Below, in pieces: positions 1,637-34,297 of a DNA stretch of 34,297 bases; within the stretch, counting starts at the first letter, position 1, and each line of letters starts with the position of its first letter. A program made the translations under genes and the position numbers. The stretch lies in contig NW_003107594.1 of the NCBI RefSeq assembly GCF_000003605.2, positions 1 through 34,297 on the forward strand, written 5' to 3'. A model generated the notes under the pieces. It saw only the letters and a list, made by a program, of their open reading frames with translations, ran no database searches and was not told the DNA's origin. Source of the DNA: Saccoglossus kowalevskii (taxonomy: Eukaryota > Hemichordata > Enteropneusta > Harrimaniidae).

Positions 1637-4076
1637 TTGCAAAGAAATGTCGAACTTCGCAGTTGTTGTTTTGTGATGGCGAGTTTTTATTACACAAATG
1701 GTACATGATTATGTGACGTCGTGTTTATCCGGATTGTATGTATATATGGAAAAATCATTTCTTCTACGGAAAAACGTGACTAGGTCTGATCACACTGATA
1801 TTCCGTACATGGTTTCTCAGTGTGAGACTCTATGTGTTTTTCAACATGTGTTACATTTCAATTAATTTTCAGTGTTAGATGTAAGTTTTATACATCTGCA
1901 TGCAACAATGTGTTACCATTTCAATTATATATTCATAGTCTGAGTCGTAGTCAGGTAATATATTCGAAGTATAATTCGACCCGGGTCTTTGACATGTGAT
2001 ACGAATAATTATCTGATTTGCGTAGAATTTAATTTTAATTTTAGTTAGTGAATCACTTTATTTTATAAACTATTATATCTATTTTTAATATATTCGGATA
2101 GTTAATCCAAGTGTATACCAACGCATTTAGTTTTTTGCACAAATAGTTTTGGTGTAAAGCTGTGACAACGGCAACAATAATTTCATTGACAATAAGTGGG
2201 TATGTCATCGGGTATGGGTATGCTACGTCATTGTCTTACTATGTGTCTCGTTTATTGATGGTGCGTCTGACGTCACCTGTGGTCGATGTGAAATTTCAGT
2301 ATTGATAAACTAATAAACATCAATAGATGTTCGGAAAACTAACGATGAGCTTGCGTCACAAGGCGACATCCACTGCGCCACGAAGGTGCTGTTTTCGTAA
2401 ATCAACGTAGTTATTTAATTGGTTGAATGTTATAGTGGTTTAAGAGTCAATCATATGATCGTGAATTTTAAATGCGTCAGATCTTAATCTCCCGTGACAT
2501 ATCGGTTTAAATTTGAATTATGAACTTGTCGACAAGAAACACTGCGATAAAGTCTTCCCGCTTTTAACATTTAAAAATTCCTTCGTTTTTTTTTTGGGGG
2601 GGGGGGGTGCTGAATATAACTGTTTTGATAAGAAAATTCAGAAATAGATTAAGAATAATTCATAACGAAATGTAGTCCATATGCACAACCATGATAATTT
2701 TCATAATTATTGATTACAAAAGACTGTTAAGAAAAAAATCTTGAATTATGACTGAAATAATCAGAATGAAATTACAAACTATGCAGTTTACTTTTTTGAA
2801 ATGCTATAATTTTCTCCAACAAAATGAAAGAATTTCATAATGTCGAAAACGAAATGTCTTTATCGTAGTGTTAGTGCCATTGTATTGACATAAAATACTT
2901 CGTTTTAGCATTTGGAAGGGAGAATTGGCGCGTAGCTAAATGTTCTTTGATAGTCGCCATGATTCTGTATCAAAACGGAAACACGTGACAGATTGTGTCG
3001 TATACAACAGTGAGTTGTAGCAAAAGGTTGTACCTTATAAACATATTTATATTAATTTGTAAATACCAAGTAGTAAAGTGACTCATTCAAAATGAAAAGC
3101 TTGCTGATTGGAAAATATTGAACTAATTAATATTAATTAGGACTTGTAATGATGTCGCCATATCGTTTCTGGATTAGTCAATTCGAATTCCATCAGTCAT
3201 TTTAATTTATTTGTATAAAATGTTTATAACATCTCCAGTTTATATGTTTTATATCGCTACCACTAACCAATTTCCTTGTATATTTATAAAAGTCAATGGC
3301 AACCGAAAATAAAGTATTACAATGTTATTCCATCGGCCAATAGTTACCCATTTATTCAATTGTTTGTCGTTTACCGATCATTTAAATTGATATCTGTTTG
3401 TTGGTGAAGCAGAACTGTTTTGCTGGAGTCGGTGTTACAGTAGCTAACATGGGTGACAAGTGACAGACGTTAAGGAATAACACCGTGCTTTGTACTATCG
3501 TGAACGTCGTACTTGTGTTGAATGCGTGACGTTACTTGCGTCGATGTTCGATTCGCCATCGCAATGATGATGACATGCGCACAATGGTGCGCAGGATAAC
3601 ACATAATTTATCGACACGTGTTTAACCCAATCAAATCGACCTTTATTACAACAGAAATTTGTATACTCAAAGCACATTCATTAAAAACTCAAATTACAAG
3701 AACGAAATTTTCTTGTATGCTCTGTTTATTTTGCCATGGAATTAAAATAATAAATAAAACCTAATTTGTTACATCGAAAATATATACATATATAAAACAG
3801 ACCTAATAGGGAATTTAGGTACCTGCTACTGTTCACAAATGACATGCATACTACTTCACTGCTGGTCATGCGCAAAGCTTATAGATGTTATCGTGCGTAT
3901 TGTGTACAAATACAGTTCAAAGTCCTGTATTGTCAATCATGTGTCGCCTGACACGAGTGTATTTTTTCGAGTCAAGGGTTATGCCTGACCCGATCAACCT
4001 CTATGCGAAATATATTTTATGGAATATGAAAATAAAATTTCATTTTTGATGTGAATGCCAATTACTTTAGATATGT
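1637..4076. other. Non-coding stretch, includes likely 3' UTR of the peptide gene
   Basis: No convincing gene is visible. There is a homopolymer run of ten T followed by twelve G at 2586-2607, which is likely length-polymorphic. The right-hand part should hold the 3' UTR of the minus-strand peptide gene that ends at 4077. The short open frames here, for example 3677..3495 on the minus strand, have no recognisable features. Confidence 0.6.
3725..3730 (-). promoter_or_regulatory. Candidate poly(A) signal of the peptide gene
   Basis: AATAAA on the minus strand, 346 nt beyond the stop codon at 4077. It is one of the first canonical hexamers after the stop; another lies at 3647..3642. Choosing between them needs transcript data. 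Confidence 0.3.
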
Positions 4077-5090
4077 TTATTCGTCATCGGATGCATCTTT
4101 CTTTCCAAGCAAATCAAAACCACCGACGCCAAAATCCGGTGCTGCTTTCTTTCCAAGGAGATCGAATCCACCAACACCGAAATCTGGTGCTGCTTTCTTT
4201 CCAAGAAGATCAAATCCACCAACACCGAAATCTGGTGCTGCTTTCTTTCCGAGGAGATCGAATCCACCGACTCCGAAATCTGGTGCTGCTTTCTTTCCGA
4301 GGAGATCGAATCCACCGACTCCGAAATCTGGTGCTGCTTTCTTCCCGAGGAGATCGAATCCACCGACTCCGAAATCTGGTGCTGCTTTCTTTCCGAGGAG
4401 ATCGAATCCACCGACTCCGAAATCTGGTGCTGCTTTCTTTCCGAGGAGATCGAACCCACCAACACCGAAATCAGGGGCTGCTTTCTTTCCGAGGAGATCG
4501 AACCCACCAACACCGAAATCTGGTGCTGCTTTCTTTCCGAGGAGATCGAACCCACCAACACCGAAATCTGGTGCTGCTTTCTTTCCAAGAAGATCGAACC
4601 CACCAACACCGAAATCTGGTGCTGCTTTCTTTCCAAGAAGATCGAACCCACCAACACCGAAATCTGGGGCTGCTTTCTTTCCGAGGAGATCGAATCCGCC
4701 GACGCCGAAATCTGGTGCTGCTTTCTTCCCGAGGAGATCGAATCCACCGACGCCGAAATCTGGTGCTGCTTTTTTTCCGAGGAGATCGAACCCACCGACA
4801 CCGAAATCGGGTGCAGCTTTTTTACCTAGAAGATCGAACCCACCGACGCCGAAATCTGGCGCGGCTTTTTTTCCGAGAAGATCGAATCCACCGACTCCGA
4901 AATCAGGCGCTGCTTTCTTTTCATCGCGTTTTCCCGCAGCATGGCTTCTACGTTTACCTGTACCCCTGCAGTAAAACCCAATTGGCTCTAGTTGGTAGTC
5001 AAAGCATGGCTGTGACCGTCTTTTGCTTATTGAATGTCGTGTTTCTAATTTGTTGACGTGGTTTTTTAGTGAGTCTGTAAGGCTTCTTTT
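4077..5090 (-). CDS. Multi-copy amidated neuropeptide precursor, main exon
   Basis: Terminal coding exon, 337 residues plus TAA, opening after a strong acceptor (pyrimidine-rich tract, then ttctcttgcag) in phase 0. In order it encodes: KR and a 20-residue spacer (SLTDSLKN...SIS) ending in KR; SQPCFDYQLEPIGFYCRGT followed by G-KRR; SHAA followed by G-KR; DE; then 17 identical copies of KKAAPDFGVGGFDLLG; and a final KK with acidic tail DASDDE. Each copy would be released by prohormone convertase at KK and amidated through its C-terminal Gly, giving AAPDFGVGGFDLL-amide. The Cys-containing peptide, with 11 residues between its two Cys, would probably form a disulfide loop and also be amidated. 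Synonymous sites vary among copies while the encoded peptide does not. No named neuropeptide family is recognised; the -FDLL-amide end and CRG motif give only vague resemblances. In-frame sequence upstream of 5090 contains a Met but is intron by the splice reading. The signal peptide comes from the exon at 8837..8778. Confidence 0.88.
   Translation of the reverse strand, partial: KRSLTDSLKNHVNKLETRHSISKRRSQPCFDYQLEPIGFYCRGTGKRRSHAAGKRDEKKAAPDFGVGGFDLLGKKAAPDFGVGGFDLLGKKAAPDFGVGGFDLLGKKAAPDFGVGGFDLLGKKAAPDFGVGGFDLLGKKAAPDFGVGGFDLLGKKAAPDFGVGGFDLLGKKAAPDFGVGGFDLLGKKAAPDFGVGGFDLLGKKAAPDFGVGGFDLLGKKAAPDFGVGGFDLLGKKAAPDFGVGGFDLLGKKAAPDFGVGGFDLLGKKAAPDFGVGGFDLLGKKAAPDFGVGGFDLLGKKAAPDFGVGGFDLLGKKAAPDFGVGGFDLLGKKDASDDE
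4104..4919 (-). repeat. 17 x 48-bp coding tandem repeat
   Basis: Seventeen uninterrupted 48-bp units, each encoding KKAAPDFGVGGFDLLG with no amino-acid change. Neighbouring units share synonymous variants. For example, one run uses a plus-strand ccaccgactccg version (about 4263-4425) and the next uses ccaccaacaccg (about 4449-4660). This points to local homogenisation by unequal exchange or gene conversion. Units near 4780-4900, at the 5' end of the exon, are the most diverged at third positions. Confidence 0.95.
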
Positions 5091-5400
5091 CTGCAAGAGA
5101 ATACAAGGAAAATGAGATATCATTAGCAACAATTTTTAACACTCTATTTTTTAACAATAGAGTAACAAAATAAAACACCTTTTCTGGTTTTCGAGGTTAC
5201 ATGATTGTTTAATCACGCGATTTTGAACCACTGGTTACAACAATTAATTTATAAAATGCAATGACCCGTTTTTTTTTCTAGAAAAATTGCCCGGAGCACT
5301 GGCAATTTTGAATTTAAATACCTTAGCCCCGTTCCTTGTGATTCTGAAAAATGTGATGCAGATAAAGGAGTATATGTGTATATGATTATATGGATTAAGT

Positions 5401-6116
5401 GTACGTGTCATTATTGAAATCGAGGATACATGTAATTGAATGATTATATGTATACGTGCCATTGAGTGATCAGAGTACACGTGTCATTGAGTGATCAGAG
5501 TACACGTGTCATTGAGTGAATCAGATTGTATGTGTCATTGAGCGTATGTGAGTATATGTGTCATTGAGTGGATCAGAGCACGCGTGTCATTGAGTGGATC
5601 GGTTTATATGTGTCACTGAGTGGTTCCGGTATAAATATCATTGAGTGGATATGAGCATACGCGTAAGTGAGTGGATCTGAGTATACTTTGCATTGAGTGG
5701 GTCAGAGTACACGTGTCATTGAGTGAATCTAATTATATGTGTCACTGAGTGGATCTTAGTATAAGTGTCATTGAACGGACCAGAGTACGCGTGTCAATGA
5801 GTGGTTAAGGTTATATGTGTCATTGAGTGGATCTAGTTATATGTGTCATTGAGTAGAACTTAGTATAATTTTCATTGAGTGGATCAGAGAACGCGTGTCA
5901 TTGAGTGAATATAATTATAAGTGTCATTGACATTGAGCGGATCAGAGTACGCGTGACATTGAATGGATCTTATTATATGTGTCATTGAGTGGATCTTAGT
6001 ATAAGTGGCATTGGGCGGATCAGATTACGCGTGTCATTGAGTGGTTCAGGTTATATGTGTCATTGAGTGAAAATGAATGCACGTTCCATTGAGTGAAGAT
6101 GAATATACGTGTCATT
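5401..6116. repeat. 26-bp minisatellite within the peptide-gene intron
   Basis: About 27 degenerate copies of a roughly 26-bp unit with core gtgtcattgagtggatcaga followed by gtacac. The copies at both ends are the most degenerate. The array starts about 310 bp upstream, in transcription direction, of the acceptor of the main peptide exon, so it is intronic if the splice model is right. No coding potential is seen. Confidence 0.93.
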
Positions 6117-7774
6117 TACCGATATAGTGATACGATGATATAATGATACGCTCTGAGTATGTCGTTATAGACTAAGGACACTATTTCTCGCGTTAGTTTG
6201 TTTTACTGATTTCCCTTATCCGATATCTAATGCTCGACGAATATAGAGCAGAATATAATTAGGGCGGGGAAAATGTGTATCGATAGTTTATATGCTTCCG
6301 ATCGTGACTAGAAGCAACGTTTTTTTTAATTCGTGACTATTCTAACTATTTATTCTTATTTATTCGCTCTGATCTAAGGATATATTCCCCTCTATGTAAG
6401 AAGATGTAAGTGAATAAATGGTGCCGATTCGTTATTATGGCTAACGACGTATTGACCACTACATGTTTCTAAGTCTCATAGATTGATTTGTGTGTCTCCA
6501 CGTCACCAGAGTATGAATGGAACATCTCAATAATTACACCGCAGCCACCACGAACAAGGTATTCACAGTTGACTGTGGATGCGAGTAAATTTGGCACCAG
6601 TTTAATTGTCACTTCGCATGTGTTAAACTGCGGAAAGCGGAATGTAATGAACGCCCAGACTCCAGTAATTATTAAATGTGTAATACATGTCACTACCAGG
6701 CAATTATCGTGCGATTCACTGATTTTTGTTGCTTAATATAGCTTATGCAAATTGTGCATTAGAGTTTGCTATTTTCAGTGAAAATAATTTAAGGGCATTG
6801 ACTGTTGCCATCGTGTGACATTGAATCAACTGTGAACAGAAAAGAATCGTTTTGTTTGATTTGACTCAAGATTCAAAATTACTTTAAATCAGTGCATCCC
6901 ATTATACACATTTACCAGCTGCCAACAATTAATAAGAGTAGACTTTTAAGTCCAATCTAGTGCTAGTATGTCACAGCAATAATTCTCAAAGTTTGATGTT
7001 TAAATTGCAGGAGAGCGACACGTATTAAACGATAATTTGTTCGGGTACGATTGTTGGAATCTTTTACGTGAATACACAATGACTGTATCAGTTTCTGAAA
7101 TGTCATGTTTAATGAAAAACCTCTGATCAGCAAATATCCCCACTATTTTGGTCATTATTAAATTACAAATGCATATATTCAATATACGTATGTGATTTAT
7201 GCAAGATTACAAGCTACTTCTTTCAAAATAATATAAACATATGATATTTGATGCTTTGAGTTTACATTAAAATACTTTTAATTGGCAGAAACTACGGACA
7301 TCGCTAAATATAAACTTATGATGTGGTGCCGACAGGGATTATCGTTGGAAAACCCGTAGCGTGCTGAAAATAAATACAATAATCCACGGTGTGATCTGAA
7401 AATCTGATTTCCGCAGGAAACGTAGAAATAAATAAACATTATTTGTAATGCCTGAGCAGAATTTTACGCTTCTTGTTAATATTCTGCTGAAATAAATAAC
7501 TTGCTTCGTAATAGGGTGTACCGTGCAAACGACAAAATCCGTTATGCTCTTCCTGTGACAACGCCGCCAAAATGTTTTCAAATTACAATATACCGGGTCC
7601 AGATTGTATGAGTGATTACATATCCAAAGATGCATATATTAGTAGCATCTTTCTCCACACCCGAGTATACCATTTTACAAAACATATATACCAAAATAAG
7701 TTTGTCAAATATATATTGGTTCAACAAAAATATTTTTTGTGAAGATAATGAATGTTTTTATTCGAATGGCGACA
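6117..7774. other. Intronic non-coding stretch
   Basis: Unique AT-rich DNA with no recognised gene. A segment at 6507-6627 is open on both strands and has a fair acceptor (ccgctttccgcag) and a weak donor on the minus strand. Nothing else supports it as an exon, so I leave it uncalled. Confidence 0.5.
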
Positions 7775-7846
7775 CGTATCAATCGTTGTGTCGCTTCGCG
7801 TATCAACCGTTGCGTCTCTCCACGTATCAGACGTTGTATCGTACTC
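7775..7846. repeat. Three 24-bp tandem repeats
   Basis: Three direct copies beginning cgtatcaatcgttgtgtcgc, cgtatcaaccgttgcgtctc and cgtatcagacgttgtatcgt, plus a partial fourth. The patch is GC-richer than its surroundings. The period is a multiple of three, so both strands read as 8-residue repeats, which explains the open frames here. Confidence 0.85.
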
Positions 7847-8036
7847 CGCATCTCGTCCGCGATTCAAGCACACTGTATAAAGTATGAACCGAATGAGATT
7901 TGAATCTAATCTTGTGAAATACGAATTTGTTTTAATTATCTTGGAAATCAAGTTATTTTCGATGTTTTTTAACTCTCCATGCTGGTCATTAACGCCATTA
8001 ATCAAATTGTATACCGCGGATTTTTTAAAATATATT

Positions 8037-8053
8037 TGTGTGTGTGTGTGTGT
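8037..8053. repeat. (TG)n microsatellite
   Basis: Eight and a half TG dinucleotides, uninterrupted. Confidence 0.95.
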
Positions 8054-8777
8054 CTGACGACGGAGAGCTACGGATGTTATACATATATTTCATTTATTTT
8101 TTAGGGTTATATTTGGCATATAACATAATCAACAGCATCCTGTGTCAATACTTTTAACTCATCGAATCATCCTGACTATCAAACTATTCAACGTAAAGAC
8201 GTCATCTAGATTACGAGTTGAGTAAATCAGAGATGGGGTGGCATAGGCGTAAATGAAAAATAGGACCGAGCTGTCATGTGCATTGTTACATATGTTAGAT
8301 ACTTCCATTTTATATTTTGATTTTTCATAATTATCTGAGAAGAACTCTTTGGAACAGATGGAACGTCTCTCACGTACATCATACTAGAAATACGGATGGC
8401 TTCTTATACTAATTCTTGCAATTCAACAACTTCCGATCGACACTTTTGTTCAGTAATGAAATAATGGCTTATGATTATTGGTGCTAACCTCCATTATAAA
8501 CACTGGAAGGTTATTTAGTAAATTGGAATTCTGAATTTCAACGATATTTATTGAAATCGATGACAAACAAAAAATATAAAATTACGTGATTGTGGTCGCT
8601 GATTTTATATTACAAATACATCTTCTTGTACTGTATTCTGATCCGAATGATTCAATTATCCTCCAAATATAATTTATTTTTCAGTTAAAAAAAATTTGAA
8701 TATCGCGAAATCGTAAAGGTGTGAGTACTAAGTAATTAATGATGGAATTGTTTGTACAAATATTGCAATGTACTCAC

Positions 8778-8932
8778 CTGGTCTTCAGCTTTTACAATGA
8801 TAATACAGCATATGGCAAGTATAAGTAAGGTTTTCATGTTTATCGACAGTTACTATTATCCCACACTTTATGTTACGTTGTCGCCTAGCGTTATAGTTAT
8901 TCTCAGTCTACTCCAATATTATATATCTCCGC
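8778..8932 (-). CDS. Signal-peptide exon of the peptide precursor
   Basis: The coding part is 8837..8778 and encodes MKTLLILAICCIIIVKAEDQ, a textbook secretory signal peptide with a short basic N-region, a hydrophobic core and probable cleavage after VKA. It ends exactly at a consensus donor, CAG|GTGAGT, in phase 0, matching the phase-0 acceptor of the repeat exon at 5090. The start codon has A at -3. Upstream of it lie 95 nt of 5' UTR back to a good acceptor (ctgtttgttcattttcag) at 8933-8935. Joining to the downstream exon gives ...VKA-EDQ-KR-SLTD..., so a dibasic site falls right after the signal peptide. The linkage is inferred from strand, phase, a missing signal peptide downstream and this orphan signal peptide upstream. 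The 3.7-kb intron between them contains the 26-bp minisatellite. Confidence 0.8.
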
Positions 8933-10827: not shown

Positions 10828-12709
10828 TGTACGTTATTCCTAGGTTTTACTGAGTGTGTACATTGGGAGTGCGTTATTTCTAGGTTTTACTGAGTGTGTA
10901 CATTGGAAGTGCGTTATTTCTAGATGTATTTGAATGTGTACATTTGGGAGTGCGTTATTTCTAGGTATATTTGAATGTGTACATTTGGGAGAGCGTTATT
11001 TCTAGGTTTAACTGAATGTATACATTGGGAGTGCGTTATTCCTAGGTTTAACTGAATGTGTACATTGGAAGTGCGTTATTTCTAGGTGTATTTGAATGTG
11101 TACATTTGGGAGTGCGTTATTTCTAGGTGTATTTGAATCAATGATGTGTACATTTGGGAGTGCGTTATTTCTATGTGTATTTGAATGTGTACATTAGGAG
11201 TGCGTTATTTCTAGGTATATTTGAATGTGTACATTTGAGAGTGCGTTATTTCTAGGTTTAACTAAATGTATTCATTGGGAGTGCGTTATTCCTAGGTTTA
11301 ACTGAATGTGTACATTGGGAGTGTGTTATTTCTGGGTGTATTGGAATGTGTACATTCGGGAGTGCGTTATTTCTAGGTGTATTTGAATGTGTAAATTTGG
11401 GAGTGCGTTATTTCTATGTGTATTTGAATGTGTACCTTTGGGAATGCGTTATTTCTAGGTGTATTTGAATGTGTACATTATGAGTGCGTTATTTCTAGGT
11501 GTGTTTGAATGTGTACATTTGGGAGTGCGTTATTTCTAGGTGTGTTTGAATGTGTACATTATGAGTGCGTTATTTCTAGGTGTATTTGAATGTGTACATT
11601 TGGGAGTGCGTTATTTCTATGTGTATTTGAATGTGTACAGTTGGGAGTGCGTTATTTCTAGGTGTATTTGAATGTGTACATTTGGTAGTGCGTTATTTCT
11701 ATGTGTATTTGAATGTGTACATTTGAGAGTGCGTTATTTCTAGGTGTATTTGAATGTGTACATTATGAGTGCGTTATTTCTAGGTGTGTTTGAATGTGTA
11801 CATTATGAGTGCGTTATTTCTAGGTGTATTTGAATGTGTACATTTGGGAGTGCGTTATTTCTATGTGTATTTGAATGTGTACATTTGGGAGTGCGTTATT
11901 TCTAGGTGTATTTGAATGTGTACATTTGGTAGTGCGTTATTTCTATGTGTATTTGAATGTGTACATTTGAGAGTGCGTTATTTCTAGGTGTATTTGAATG
12001 TGTACATTTGGCAGTGCGTTATTTCTAGGTGTATTTGAATGTGTAAATTTGGGAGTGCGTTATTTCTATGTGTATTTGAATGTGTACCTTTGGGAATGCG
12101 TTATTTCTAGGTGTATTTGAATGTGTACATTATGAGTGCGTTATTTCTAGGTGTGTTTGAATGTGTACATTTGGGAGTGCGTTATTTCTAGGTGTGTTTG
12201 AATGTGTACATTATGAGTGCGTTATTTCTAGGTGTATTTGAATGTGTACATTTGGGAGTGCGTTATTTCTATGTGTATTTGAATGTGTACATTTGGGAGT
12301 GCGTTATTTCTAGGTGTATTTGAATGTGTACATTTGAGAGTGCGTTATTTCTAGGTGTATTTGAATGTGTACATTATGAGTGCGTTATTTCTAGGTGTGT
12401 TTGAATGTGTACATTATGAGTGCGTTATTTCTAGGTGTATTTGAATGTGTACATTTGGGAGTGCGTTATTTCTATGTGTATTTGAATGTGTAAATTTGGG
12501 AGTGCGTTATTTCTAGGTGTATTTGAATGTGTACATTTGGTAGTGCGTTATTTCTATGTGTATTTGAATGTGTACATTTGAGAGTGCGTTATTTCTAGGT
12601 GTATTTGAATGTGTACATTTGGCAGTGCGTTATTTCTAGGTGTATTTGAATGTGTACATTTGGCAGTGCGTTATTCCTAGGTGTAACTGAATGTATACAT
12701 TGGGAGTGG
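10828..12709. repeat. 41-bp minisatellite with higher-order repeats
   Basis: About 46 copies of a roughly 41-bp unit with core tgcgttatttctaggtgtat followed by ttgaatgtgtacatttggga. Variants (attatgag, tttggtag, tttgagag, ctatgtg) recur in the same order. The block at about 11372-11650 reappears at 12024-12302 (offset 652 bp, 16 units) with almost no change, and another block recurs at an offset of 611 bp (15 units). The two edges share an older ttcctaggttt and aactgaatgtatacattggg variant, so the middle expanded by recent block duplication. Confidence 0.97.
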
Positions 12710-15700: not shown

Positions 15701-18025
15701 CGAATGAGTTTTATGCGCAAACATTTGTTCGGAAAATAACATTTTCGCTGGAATTGAATATTTTCACCAACTAGTAACAATTTGATTTAAGCCTTGTATT
15801 TCTTTCCTTTTTTATTTATTCGTAATTCGTTTAGCACTACTGTACGCAATGATTAATCGTGCCATACAGGAACATGGCACTTACAAACGGTGCACTCAAG
15901 AAATTGATTATTTGTCCACAGCCCATACACCACTTAACTTCATCATACTCCATTCAATGTTATGACGTCTAGCCCCTTCATATAGTGAAATTAATTACAG
16001 CTGTCGAGTTGTGTCTATTCCTAATGGAATTTCAACACTGGAATATTACTTGCGTAACGGATCCATTGACAGTGTTTTACTACCTAATTACCAAACCAGA
16101 CTCTCGTGTCAATGTGTTTGCAAGATATCAGGCCCAATAGTCCTTTTGAGGGCTTCTAGTACGCATGCTATGCTGTTCAATGACGTCAACAACCTCTAAG
16201 CTTGTTCGATGTTCGTATGATGAAGTTCATATTTACACGCCACAACTATAATTGTCAATGTTACGCGTTTTCTAAAATGACGTGTCATGTTTTGGTGTGT
16301 CTTGAGGGTGTATCCTTTCCTGTGGTAGTTGTTATAGGTCAGTGACACAATGCAACTATCTCCGAACTCGGAACAACAAGATGACGGAGTTGCTAGGATA
16401 CTGAAACTTATGAATGGTCTATTGAAACACTGTTTATACTCGAAAGCCATATGGGTAATATTTCCTTCCTCTAGTAATTTATCATTTCACATAAGTGCGT
16501 AATTAGACCGCACAGAACGAACATATGTTTACTAACATGTGATGTGGTAGAGACCGTCTGAAACCCCCTAGAAAACATTAAGTCTGACTGATACATGCAC
16601 ATAATCTAGTTATATATTTTGTACTACTCAGGGTACACATTTAGGCGCCAGAAAACTGACGAATTTCTTGTTGGAAATCCGACATTGTGTCGTCACTGAC
16701 AAACATTGTGAATTGTCATATAATTCGAGTTTATAGATGACTCAGTGTAAGTTGCAGAGTGTATGTAAAAACACGTACGTGTCACAGAAACGACAAGTTA
16801 TATAATGAGCTTATCCACCATGCAAAACCGCGCTTGTCTAAATTCCAACATACTTTACCTGTGTGTGTCAACATCTGACGAGTAGCTCTACGTTCTTCCT
16901 ATTATACTGGTTAGTTAAACACCGAATTTATAATAAGAATTGTGTGATATTCTAACAAATATTTTGATATTGCTCCAAAATCATTTGAAGAATTGAACGA
17001 TTTTTGGAATCTTGTTGTTTTCTAGTATTTGTGACAATTATTCAATTTGTGAAAACTCTCCCATGGCTAGCCTACGCCAAACAGGGGCGTTGCCGTTACA
17101 ATTTGATGGCGTGTGAGTGAATTATATACAAATATTTGTACAGAAAAGACACCTTTTTAAAAAAAAAAAAAAAAAACATTTCTGTCCAACCAAACACACA
17201 CTGTCTCACACCAACTGTTGCATTAATCATGAGACAATAATGTGTAACGTAGATAATTACTTTAACATAATAGAGCGAATTTAATACTAACAGATTAGTT
17301 ACTTTCATCGAACGATCGCAATATTTTAGTGAATCCCAAGGGTTATTTCATTTTATAATTCACATAATGTAGCAGACATAGTGCACGATGATTCTCATAT
17401 TTCATCGTGTCTATCGGCACTGTTTCTCATTTTCCCATTCACGGCCTGTGTTTAGCGGCAACAGCTTTCAAGCAATATTTTAAGATTACGAATTAAAATT
17501 GATAAAACATTTTGTCTGACAAAAGCTGTAAAGTACAGACGTTCTGTTTTTATTAAACGTGCTCGCGTGCACAATTTGTTATTATTAAAATAACGATATA
17601 TCCAGTGACTTTACGAACAAACTTTCCACCTTAATCGAATATGCATATGCACGTATTCGTGACATTGTCAATACAATTATGAAAATATACATTATCTTTA
17701 AAATATTTTGGAAGCTAACATAATGTTAGTAATTTCAACATTTTACTTGACCTTCACACCTACTCGCATTAATGCCCACATTTGTGATAGTAAATAGTAT
17801 TTGGTTTCTTGACCTTCACATTGTACAGACTTGTATTAGTCATACAGTTATACACTACGTTGCCAACGCTTTATGTCACCCACGTACGCTTTCAACTCTT
17901 GCAAAATTCGAAAAATGCGACCGACAGACATATTTATGCCAATGTTCGCGCAAGAAAAACATTTTCAGAAGCGAAATAACACATATACATAAATACATGT
18001 TATGCGTGTCGCATTATTACCAGAG
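12710..18025. other. Long, mostly non-coding stretch
   Basis: Unique AT-rich DNA. Three open segments have splice-like ends: 15551..15408 on the minus strand (see its entry), 16001-16140 on the plus strand after attaattacag, and 17848-17979 on the plus strand after ttagtcatacag. Both plus-strand segments end in a stop. Open segments of this length are expected many times by chance here, so I call no gene. A 19-nt A run lies at 17159-17177. Confidence 0.5.
15408..15551 (-). CDS. Weak candidate terminal exon, unknown product
   Basis: After a good acceptor (gacacacttcccactttacag) the minus strand stays open for 47 residues, KQLYLHALYDMKQLCIVTSE and onward to ...GISFRTL, then TAG. The composition looks protein-like and helical, with few Asn or Lys runs. 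No AATAAA follows closely, no partner exon is identified and no family is recognised. In DNA of this base composition an open run of this size is not significant by itself. Confidence 0.17.
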   Translation of the reverse strand, partial: KQLYLHALYDMKQLCIVTSEAIIHLSEYPRTLTAIIEKALGISFRTL

Positions 18026-18640
18026 TATGACTAGCAAATATACACACCAATGATAGTAACAGAATTGTATGTCTAGCAAATATACACACCAATGATATTA
18101 ACAGAATTGTATGTCTAGCAAATATACACACCAATGATAGAAACAGAATTGTATGTCTAGCAAATATACACACCAATGATAGAAACAGAATTGTATGTCT
18201 AGCAAATATACACACCAATGATATTAACAGAATTGTATGTCTAGCAAATATACACACCAATAATATTAACAGAATTGTATGTCTAGCAAATATACACACC
18301 AATGATAGTAACAGAATTGTATGTTTAGCAAATATACACACCAATAATATTAACAGAATTGTATGTCTAGCAAATATACACACCAATGATATTAACAGAA
18401 TTGTATGTCTAGCAAATATACACACCAATAATATTAACAGAATTGTATGTCTAGCAAATATACACACCAATAATATTAACAGAATTGTATGTCTAGCAAA
18501 TATACACACCAATAATATTAACATAATTGTATGACTAGCAAATATACACACCAATGATAGTAACAGAATTGTATGTCTAGCAAATATACACACCAATGAT
18601 AGAAACAGAATTGTATGTCTAGCAAATATACACACCAATA
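18026..18640. repeat. 42-bp minisatellite, 14.6 copies
   Basis: Very regular units of 42 bp, core tgtctagcaaatatacacac followed by caatgatagtaacagaattg. The main variation is at one site (gatagaaac, gatagtaac, gatattaac, aatattaac). Because 42 is divisible by three, the minus strand stays open for about 212 codons as a 14-residue repeat. The differences change amino acids freely (Leu, Phe, Ile, Ser), so there is no sign of protein-level constraint. Confidence 0.97.
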
Positions 18641-31987: not shown

Positions 31988-34297
31988 GAATTACGTACAC
32001 ATACTAGTACTGTAGTGCAAAATACTAGCAGTATAGTGAAACATACTAGTAGTATAGTGAAACATACTAGTAGTATAGTGAAACATACTAATAGTATAGT
32101 GAAACATACTAGTACTATAGTACAACATACTGGTAGTATAGTGAAACATATTAGTAGTATAGTGAAACATATTAGAATAGATTGAGACAAACTAGTAGTG
32201 TTGTGAAACATGCTGGAATAGAGTGAGACATACTAGTAGAATAGTGAAACATATTAGTAGTATAGTGAAACATATTAGAATAGAGTGAGACATACTAGTA
32301 GTGTAGTGAAACACACTAGTACTATAGTACAACATACTAGTAGTATAGTGAAACATATTAGTAGTATAGTGAAACATACTACTAGTATAGTGAAACATAT
32401 TAGTAGTATAGTGAAACATATTAGAATAGAGTGAGACATACTCGTAGTGTAGTGAAACATACTAGTAGTATAGTGAAACACACTAGTACTATAGTACACC
32501 ATACTAGTAGTATAGTGAAACATACTAGTAGTATAGTGAAACACACTAGTAGTATAGTACAACATACTAGTAGTATAGTGAAATATACTATTAGTATTGT
32601 GAAACATACTAGTAGTATAGTGAAACATATTAGAATAGAGTGAGACATACTAGTAGTGTAGTGAAACATGCTAGTAGTATAGTGAAACATACTAGTAGTA
32701 TAGTGAAACTTATTAGAATAGAGTGAGACATACTAGAAGTGTAGTGAAACATACGAGTACTATAGTAAAACATACTAGTAGTATAGTGAAACATACTAGT
32801 AGTATAGTGAAACATATTAGAATAGAGTGAGACATACTAGTAGTGTAGTGAAACATGCTAGTAGTATAGTGAAACATAATAGTAGTACAGTGAAACATTA
32901 GAATAGAGTGAGACATACTAGTAGTATAGTAAAATATATTAGTAGTTTAGTGAAACATATTAGAATAGAGTGAGACATACTAGTAGTGTAGTGAAACACA
33001 CTAGTACTATAGTACAACATACTAGTAGTATAGTGAAACATTTTAGTAGTATAGTACAACATACTAGTAGTATAGTGAAACATATTAGAATAGATTGAGA
33101 CATACTAGTAGTGTTGTGAAACATGCTGGAATAGAGTGAGACATACTAGTAGAATAGTGAAACATATTAGTAGTATAGTGAAACATACTAGTAGTATAGT
33201 GAAACATATTAGAATAGAGTGAGACATACTAGTAGTGTAGTGAAACATACTAGTAGTATAGTGAAACACACTAGTACTATAGTACAACATACTAGTAGTA
33301 TAGTGAAACATATTAGTAGTATAGTGAAACATACTACTAGTATAGTGAAACATATTAGTAGTATAGTGAAACATATTAGAATAGAGTGAGACATACTCGT
33401 AGTGTAGTGAAACATACTAGTAGTATAGTGAAACACACTAGTACTATAGTACACCATACTAGTAGTATAGTGAAACATATTAGAATAGAGTGAGACATAC
33501 TAGTAGTGTAGTGAAACATACTAGTAGTATAGTGAAACACACTAGTAGTATAGTACAACATACTAGTAGTATAGTGAAATATACTATTAGTATTGTGAAA
33601 CATACTAGTAGTATAGTGAAACATATTAGAATAGAGTGAGACATACTAGTAGTGTAGTGAAACATGCTAGTAGTATAGTGAAACATACTAGTAGTATAGT
33701 GAAACTTATTAGAATAGAGTGAGACATACTAGAAGTGTAGTGAAACATACGAGTACTATAGTAAAACATACTAGTAGTATAGTGAAACATACTAGTAGTA
33801 TAGTGAAACATATTAGAATAGAGTGAGACATACTAGTAGTGTAGTGAAACATGCTAATAGTAGTACAGTGAAACATTAGAATAGAGTGAGACATACTAGT
33901 AGTATAGTAAAATATATTAGTAGTTTAGTGAAAACATATTAGAATAGAGTGAGACATACTAGTAGTGTAGTGAAACATACTAGTAGTATAGTGAAACACA
34001 CTAGTACTATAGTACAACATACTAGTAGTATAGTGAAACATTTTAGTAGTATAGTGAAACATATTAGAATAGAGTGAGACATACTAGTAGTGTAGTGAAA
34101 CATACTAGTAGTATAGTGAAACACACTAGTACTATAGTGAAACACACTAGTACTATAGTACAACATATTAGCAGTATTGTGAAACATACTAGTAGTATAG
34201 TTAAACATACTAGTAGTAGAGTGAAACATACTAGTAGTATAGTGAAACATATTAGAATAGAGTGAGACATACTAGTAGTGTAATGAAACATGCTAGT
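31988..34297. repeat. 21-bp minisatellite with roughly 1-kb higher-order unit
   Basis: More than 100 copies of a 20-21-bp unit, actagtagtatagtgaaaca plus t. They are interspersed with regular variants: attagaatagagtgagacat (20 bp), actagtactatagtacaaca, and a gtgtagtg version. Landmark variants recur at offsets of 913 bp (32211/33124), 955 bp (32378/33333) and 996 bp (32587/33583). The array is therefore a large tandem duplication whose copies differ by small unit gains. It runs off the right edge. The many open frames on both strands are consequences of the 21-bp period. Confidence 0.97.

Follow-up and report, generated by a model that had tools for sequence, protein, structure and literature searches.

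In a 34,297-nucleotide (nt) stretch of the genome of the acorn worm Saccoglossus kowalevskii (contig NW_003107594.1 of assembly GCF_000003605.2; the whole stretch is called the window below), we have characterized a minus-strand gene with two coding exons, which very probably encodes a secreted prohormone giving 17 identical amidated peptides and one ring-shaped peptide. The gene product is best read as a multi-copy precursor of amidated neuropeptides that appears to be new and may be confined to hemichordates. The two exons joined in phase 0 give a precursor of 357 residues, which from the N- to the C-terminus consists of a signal peptide, EDQ-KR, SLTDSLKNHVNKLETRHSIS-KRR, SQPCFDYQLEPIGFYCRGT-G-KRR, SHAA-G-KR, DE-KK, 17 units of AAPDFGVGGFDLL-G-KK and DASDDE. 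The exon coordinates, the phase-0 join, the length of 357 residues and the 17 identical units had been reported in the original prediction for this stretch, and all of them were re-derived by splicing and translation. The following features have been assigned to the gene.

8787..8837, minus strand: signal peptide MKTLLILAICCIIIVKA at the start of exon 1 (rule-based scan).
8778..8837, minus strand: coding exon 1 of 60 nt, encoding MKTLLILAICCIIIVKAEDQ, with the donor CAG/gtgagt (9/9 donor, phase 0).
5091..8777, minus strand: intron of 3,687 nt between the two exons, with a 26-nt minisatellite (sequence; Tandem Repeats Finder, TRF).
4077..5090, minus strand: coding exon 2 of 1014 nt including the stop TAA, with the acceptor ttctcttgcag/AAAAGA (pyrimidine tract and CAG).
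5025..5084, minus strand: linker or possible peptide SLTDSLKNHVNKLETRHSIS between KR sites (translation).
4959..5015, minus strand: candidate cyclic amidated peptide SQPCFDYQLEPIGFYCRGT-NH2, with KRR before and GKRR after it (translation).
4935..4946, minus strand: short segment SHAA, followed by GKR (translation).
4098..4913, minus strand: 17 units of AAPDFGVGGFDLL-G-KK (TRF, translation, codon comparison and genome-wide motif search).
4077..4097, minus strand: C-terminal tail DASDDE and stop (translation).

All 17 units (4913..4098) read AAPDFGVGGFDLLGKK at the protein level, and the array was called by TRF with a period of 48, 17.2 copies and 92% matches. Compared with their consensus, the units show 57 nucleotide differences, and because every one of these (57/57) is synonymous, the array is not a chance open reading frame (ORF). 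Variation is found in 14 of the 48 columns of the unit, 13 being third codon positions and one the first position of a Leu codon. The 23 distinct changes are all silent, for which random placement among same-base sites gives P = 1.5e-10; this value is a guide and not an exact probability, the copies being related by duplication. As DNA, 14/17 units are distinct, and pairs of units differ on average by 5.1 nt with 12 synonymous sites, corresponding to a proportion of synonymous differences (pS) of 0.42 and a Jukes-Cantor (JC) synonymous distance (dS) of ~0.62, while the nonsynonymous distance (dN) is 0. The unit thus carries the mark of purifying selection, as expected of the bioactive unit of a neuropeptide precursor. 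Adjacent units differ at a mean of 3.4 positions (16 pairs), fewer than the 10 that separate the units at its two ends (one pair), which suggests array growth through local duplication or conversion, with the peptide maintained by selection. Read in the other five frames, it gives 13, 13, 14, 3 and 13 distinct units, the value of 3 belonging to an antisense frame, and stops occur in three of those frames. We also noted on the plus strand an antisense open frame of 312 codons (4036-4974), which consists of FFPRRSNPPTPKSGAA repeats and is stop-free across the array.

The N-terminal signal peptide was found by a rule-based scan, which applied a simple rule of our own for hydrophobicity and cleavage in place of SignalP. 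Among 1610 ATGs on both strands of the 34 kb, the ATG of exon 1 is the sole one that opens a signal-peptide-like N-terminus and is followed within 50 codons by a phase-0 donor scoring at least 8/9; the same scan of the window found no start exon for the plus strand. The donor of exon 1 is the sole 9/9 donor of the window on either strand. The ATG of this exon has A at -3 and is preceded by an in-frame stop at a distance of 15 nt. Among the 12 AG sites in 5133-4950, the acceptor before 5090 stands out with 14 pyrimidines out of 16, against at most 10 for the other 11; the remaining two phase-0 AG sites in this range have 5 and 10. Part of the intron, at 5450-6116, is occupied by the 26-nt minisatellite (TRF).

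Peptides bounded by dibasic sites and carrying a Gly amide donor were found in all 17 units, each of which ends in GKK, and in the Cys-pair peptide, which ends in GKRR. The main product would be AAPDFGVGGFDLL-NH2, with a predicted MH+ of 1277.652 (2+ ion at 639.330). The second candidate product is SQPCFDYQLEPIGFYCRGT-amide (5015..4959), a candidate cyclic amidated peptide that may be closed by a disulphide bond, in which form its predicted MH+ is 2220.984. The original prediction was right about the 17-copy peptide, and it had missed both the Cys-pair peptide and the SHAA-G-KR segment. Its proposal of an amidated multi-copy neuropeptide precursor is supported, as judged from the gene and its translation, by the signal peptide, the dibasic sites, the amide-donor Gly and the unit conserved across synonymous change.

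The genome of 572 Mb in 4,830 contigs was searched for copies and relatives, each search scoring only the best candidates. The degenerate pattern GF-D-[LF]-[LF]-G followed by two basic-type codons was found at 18 genome sites, of which 17 are the units of the array and the remaining one reads GFDFFGH. Since a control pattern read backward gave 1 match on each strand, this stray site is at the level of chance. Searches with the shortened precursor and with the N-terminal region returned the own locus alone, except for one weak chance-like match; by these searches, the gene has one copy in the assembly. With the Cys-pair peptide, the genome search gave only itself and one weak match (L026:1501-1608, which is G000:C207:46590-46697; E 0.088, 42% identity), reading PAFDFALPGYGFWCVGT. 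Because this match lacks the first Cys and sits in a 29-codon frame between stops, it is probably due to chance. The shortened precursors had no match in Pfam or NCBIfam (E up to 1 in each) or among PDB sequences (E up to 10). The original prediction had likewise connected the peptide with no characterized family and had held that it may be new or lineage-restricted.

After transcription and splicing of the two-exon gene, the precursor would enter the secretory pathway of neurons or endocrine cells, where prohormone convertases would cut at Lys-Lys and Lys-Arg, a carboxypeptidase would remove the basic residues and PAM would convert the exposed Gly. Each precursor could thus yield up to 17 copies of AAPDFGVGGFDLL-NH2 and one disulphide-closed SQPCFDYQLEPIGFYCRGT-NH2, and the released peptides would be expected to act on G-protein-coupled receptors. 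The high copy number would provide many mature peptides per precursor, in a manner comparable to TRH-type precursors.

Several points weigh against a neuropeptide precursor. It is known here from genomic sequence alone; the KK after all 17 units is a rarer convertase site than KR; the mature peptide fits no known family among those compared below; and the first AATAAA after the stop codon starts 346 nt downstream, not counting one that overlaps the stop codon. Variant signals occur closer to the stop, CATAAA at 55 nt and AATATA at 60 nt. The Cu2-monooxygenase (PHM/DBH) family also includes DBH, and that its exons in this genome (PF01082) possibly belong to DBH and not to PAM is a further point on the same side. 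Counting for a neuropeptide precursor, exons of this family are present in the genome, with 3/4 matches over the cut-off, and neuropeptides and the markers PC2, GPC and PAM have been documented in hemichordates (PMC10508912).

The peptide might instead belong, in highly diverged form, to a known ambulacrarian family, for instance as the hemichordate ligand of kisspeptin-type receptors or as a relative of galanin/allatostatin-A or the SALMFamides, which we consider unlikely. Kisspeptin-type receptors of S. kowalevskii fall in clades 1-3, with identification of hemichordate ligands left to future work (PMC9400282), and its GnIH/NPFF-, QRFP- and PrRP-type receptors were without known ligands in 2014 (PMC4062910); both points speak for this reading. 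The C-terminus of the 17-copy peptide, however, is DLL-amide. It is not the LRF/LPF-amide or similar aromatic amide of AjKiss and vertebrate kisspeptin-type sequences (PMC7282810), the LxF-amide or FxF-amide that defines SALMFamides (PMC3594158), the FGL-amide of allatostatin-A (PMC4489612) or the FxGLM-amide of deuterostome tachykinins (PMC6880623). Kisspeptin membership was rejected on this C-terminus and on the Cys pair and its surroundings, which differ from those of AjKiss1a (PMC7282810), although the peptide may still act on a kisspeptin-type receptor. Two Cys residues are also found in an echinoderm kisspeptin-type peptide, starfish ArKP1 (precursor ArKPP1). The sea cucumber precursor AjpreKiss carries two single-copy peptides ending in LPF-NH2, whereas 17 copies ending in DLL-NH2 are found here, together with a Cys-pair peptide of a different sequence.

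Comparison with other multi-copy or Cys-pair systems gave partial likenesses. Echinoderm TRH-type precursors also have many copies and a Gly amide donor, those of sea urchin and sea cucumber holding 19 putative neuropeptides (PMC4772807); their products, in contrast, are short pQ...-NH2 peptides such as pQWYT-NH2, with a sequence unrelated to the acorn-worm peptide. Elevenin resembles the Cys-pair peptide in the Arg-Gly after the second Cys and in a Pro in the loop, but its definition by eight residues between the Cys and by D5, F11, P13, R16 and G17 (PMC10175484) does not apply here. The Cys-pair peptide has 11 residues between its Cys, no Asp before the first Cys, and Pro five, not two, residues before the second Cys, and it is followed in the acorn worm by the Gly amide donor and KRR. 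Elevenin signalling is described as primarily protostome (PMC10175484). Compared by description, pedal peptide/orcokinin precursors are alike in holding multi-copy peptides between dibasic sites, in echinoderms too. Peptides of the latter group have a free C-terminus, whereas the Gly of the acorn-worm unit would give an amide.

Peptides already named in S. kowalevskii include VIamide, luqin, WFMRFamide and NNFamide (PMC10508912). When the genome was searched for WFMRF-G with a basic-type codon next to it and then Arg or Ser, no matches were obtained. Taken by itself, this would count against S. kowalevskii as the host species, but the pattern, which would miss G-K-K, may be too strict. In an open-literature search, the strings of both peptides were not found as neuropeptides; two 2013 surveys of S. 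kowalevskii and their supplements, which may list the precursor, were not covered by this search. The string DLL-NH2 was found in papers that are unrelated by title, on the antimicrobial peptide DGL13K and fish TAC3.

Secreted defence peptides, antimicrobial or deterrent, are an improbable alternative to neuropeptides. Skin secretions and venoms also hold multi-copy secreted amidated peptides, but the 13-mer is acidic, with two Asp and zero basic residues, unlike cationic antimicrobial peptides. A secreted, unprocessed repetitive structural or mucus protein, for which the identical tandem repeats rich in Gly/Ala and the minisatellite-rich window might speak, is improbable as well: the G-K-K closing every unit, the KR-flanked and amidation-ready Cys-pair peptide and the short acidic tail fit a prohormone better, and the shortened precursor has no Pfam domain. 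An artefact, in the form of a minisatellite whose frame happens to be open, can practically be dismissed even though other minisatellites of the window and one antisense frame of the array are open too, because the differences in the sense frame are all synonymous and the signal-peptide exon and strong splice sites share the strand with the array.

Within the reading of the gene as a neuropeptide precursor, we tentatively consider a hemichordate-restricted dual system, in which a single gene supplies 17 copies of an FDLL-amide peptide together with one cyclic peptide, a CRGT-amide. Neither would have a homologue in a described family, and their receptors might have originated, or been recruited, within the acorn-worm lineage and might be found among the kisspeptin-type receptors without ligands; this could well turn out otherwise. 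Hemichordates connect echinoderms and chordates, and several of their peptide receptors are named as being without a known ligand (PMC9400282, PMC4062910). A strongly amplified peptide, from a gene with one copy in this assembly, provides a defined ligand for receptor screening and a target by which antibodies or in situ probes could mark a cell type of the acorn-worm nerve plexus. With it, the late origin of new peptide families in the acorn-worm lineage can also be tested.

Elsewhere in the window, long minisatellites are found at 1-1635, 10832-12708, 18025-18639 and 31999-34297, with periods of 40, 41, 42 and 21 nt and about 41, 46, 15 and 110 copies, respectively, and several of them contain spurious open frames. 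The Pfam scan of the window took in 19 of the 28 listed ORFs, the other 9 being mostly frames of the same repeat arrays. Over the 42-nt minisatellite, the open frame 18031-18534 matched Galaxin_repeat (E 6.8e-7; 29.7 against a cut-off of 28 bits), which is taken as a chance match of low complexity; the same frame gave three further Pfam matches under the cut-off. Three of the 19 ORFs had only sub-cut-off matches (DUF3145, HRXXH and Ery_res_leader1), and the remaining scanned ORFs had none. At gathering scores, Rfam gave no match in the window.

The host was also examined through its mitochondrial contig, L011 (G000:C4830) of 17,037 nt. The gene order is ATP6-COX3-G-ND3-R-ND4L-ND4-H-S-ND5-CYTB-E-(P, ND6, S reversed)-T-W-D-F-[rRNA region], followed by L-M-ND2-L-K-V-ND1-I-(COX1 reversed)-C-Q-A-(N, Y reversed)-COX2. 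Pfam identified COX1 and ARAGORN the tRNAs, the other protein genes were recognized by eye from their translations, and the only basis for placing the rRNAs was the gap separating tRNA-Phe from tRNA-Leu. AGG does not occur in the 12 protein genes counted, where AAA was found at conserved Lys positions and AGA at Ser positions, both judged by eye against human residues; UGA falls at Trp. The nine AUA codons of COX1 fall at 5 Ile, 3 Val, 1 Leu and 0 Met in the alignment with 1occ_A, and at 5 Ile, 2 Val, 1 Leu and 1 Met in that with the top match 7o37_a.

Reported features include AUA for Ile in echinoderms and hemichordates, AAA for Lys in Saccoglossus, nd5-cob adjacency in hemichordates and Xenoturbella, and, between S. 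kowalevskii and Balanoglossus, a COX1 inversion and a transposition of ND1 or ND2 (PMC3121625, PMC2697986). Because AUA falls at Ile and AAA at Lys, COX1 is inverted, ND1/ND2 are transposed and nd5 and cob are adjacent, the mitochondrial genome appears to have the pattern of a Saccoglossus-type acorn worm. A mollusc, annelid, brachiopod or nemertean host was rejected by the mitochondrial code and the inverted COX1. The phyla in which the original prediction had suggested a search for the peptide (molluscs, annelids, brachiopods, nemerteans and echinoderms) had omitted the hemichordates, to which the mitochondrial genome points. At the end of the mitochondrial contig (L011 ~16200-17037), a tandem repetition with a period of 191 nt is present, with 91% identity at that lag.

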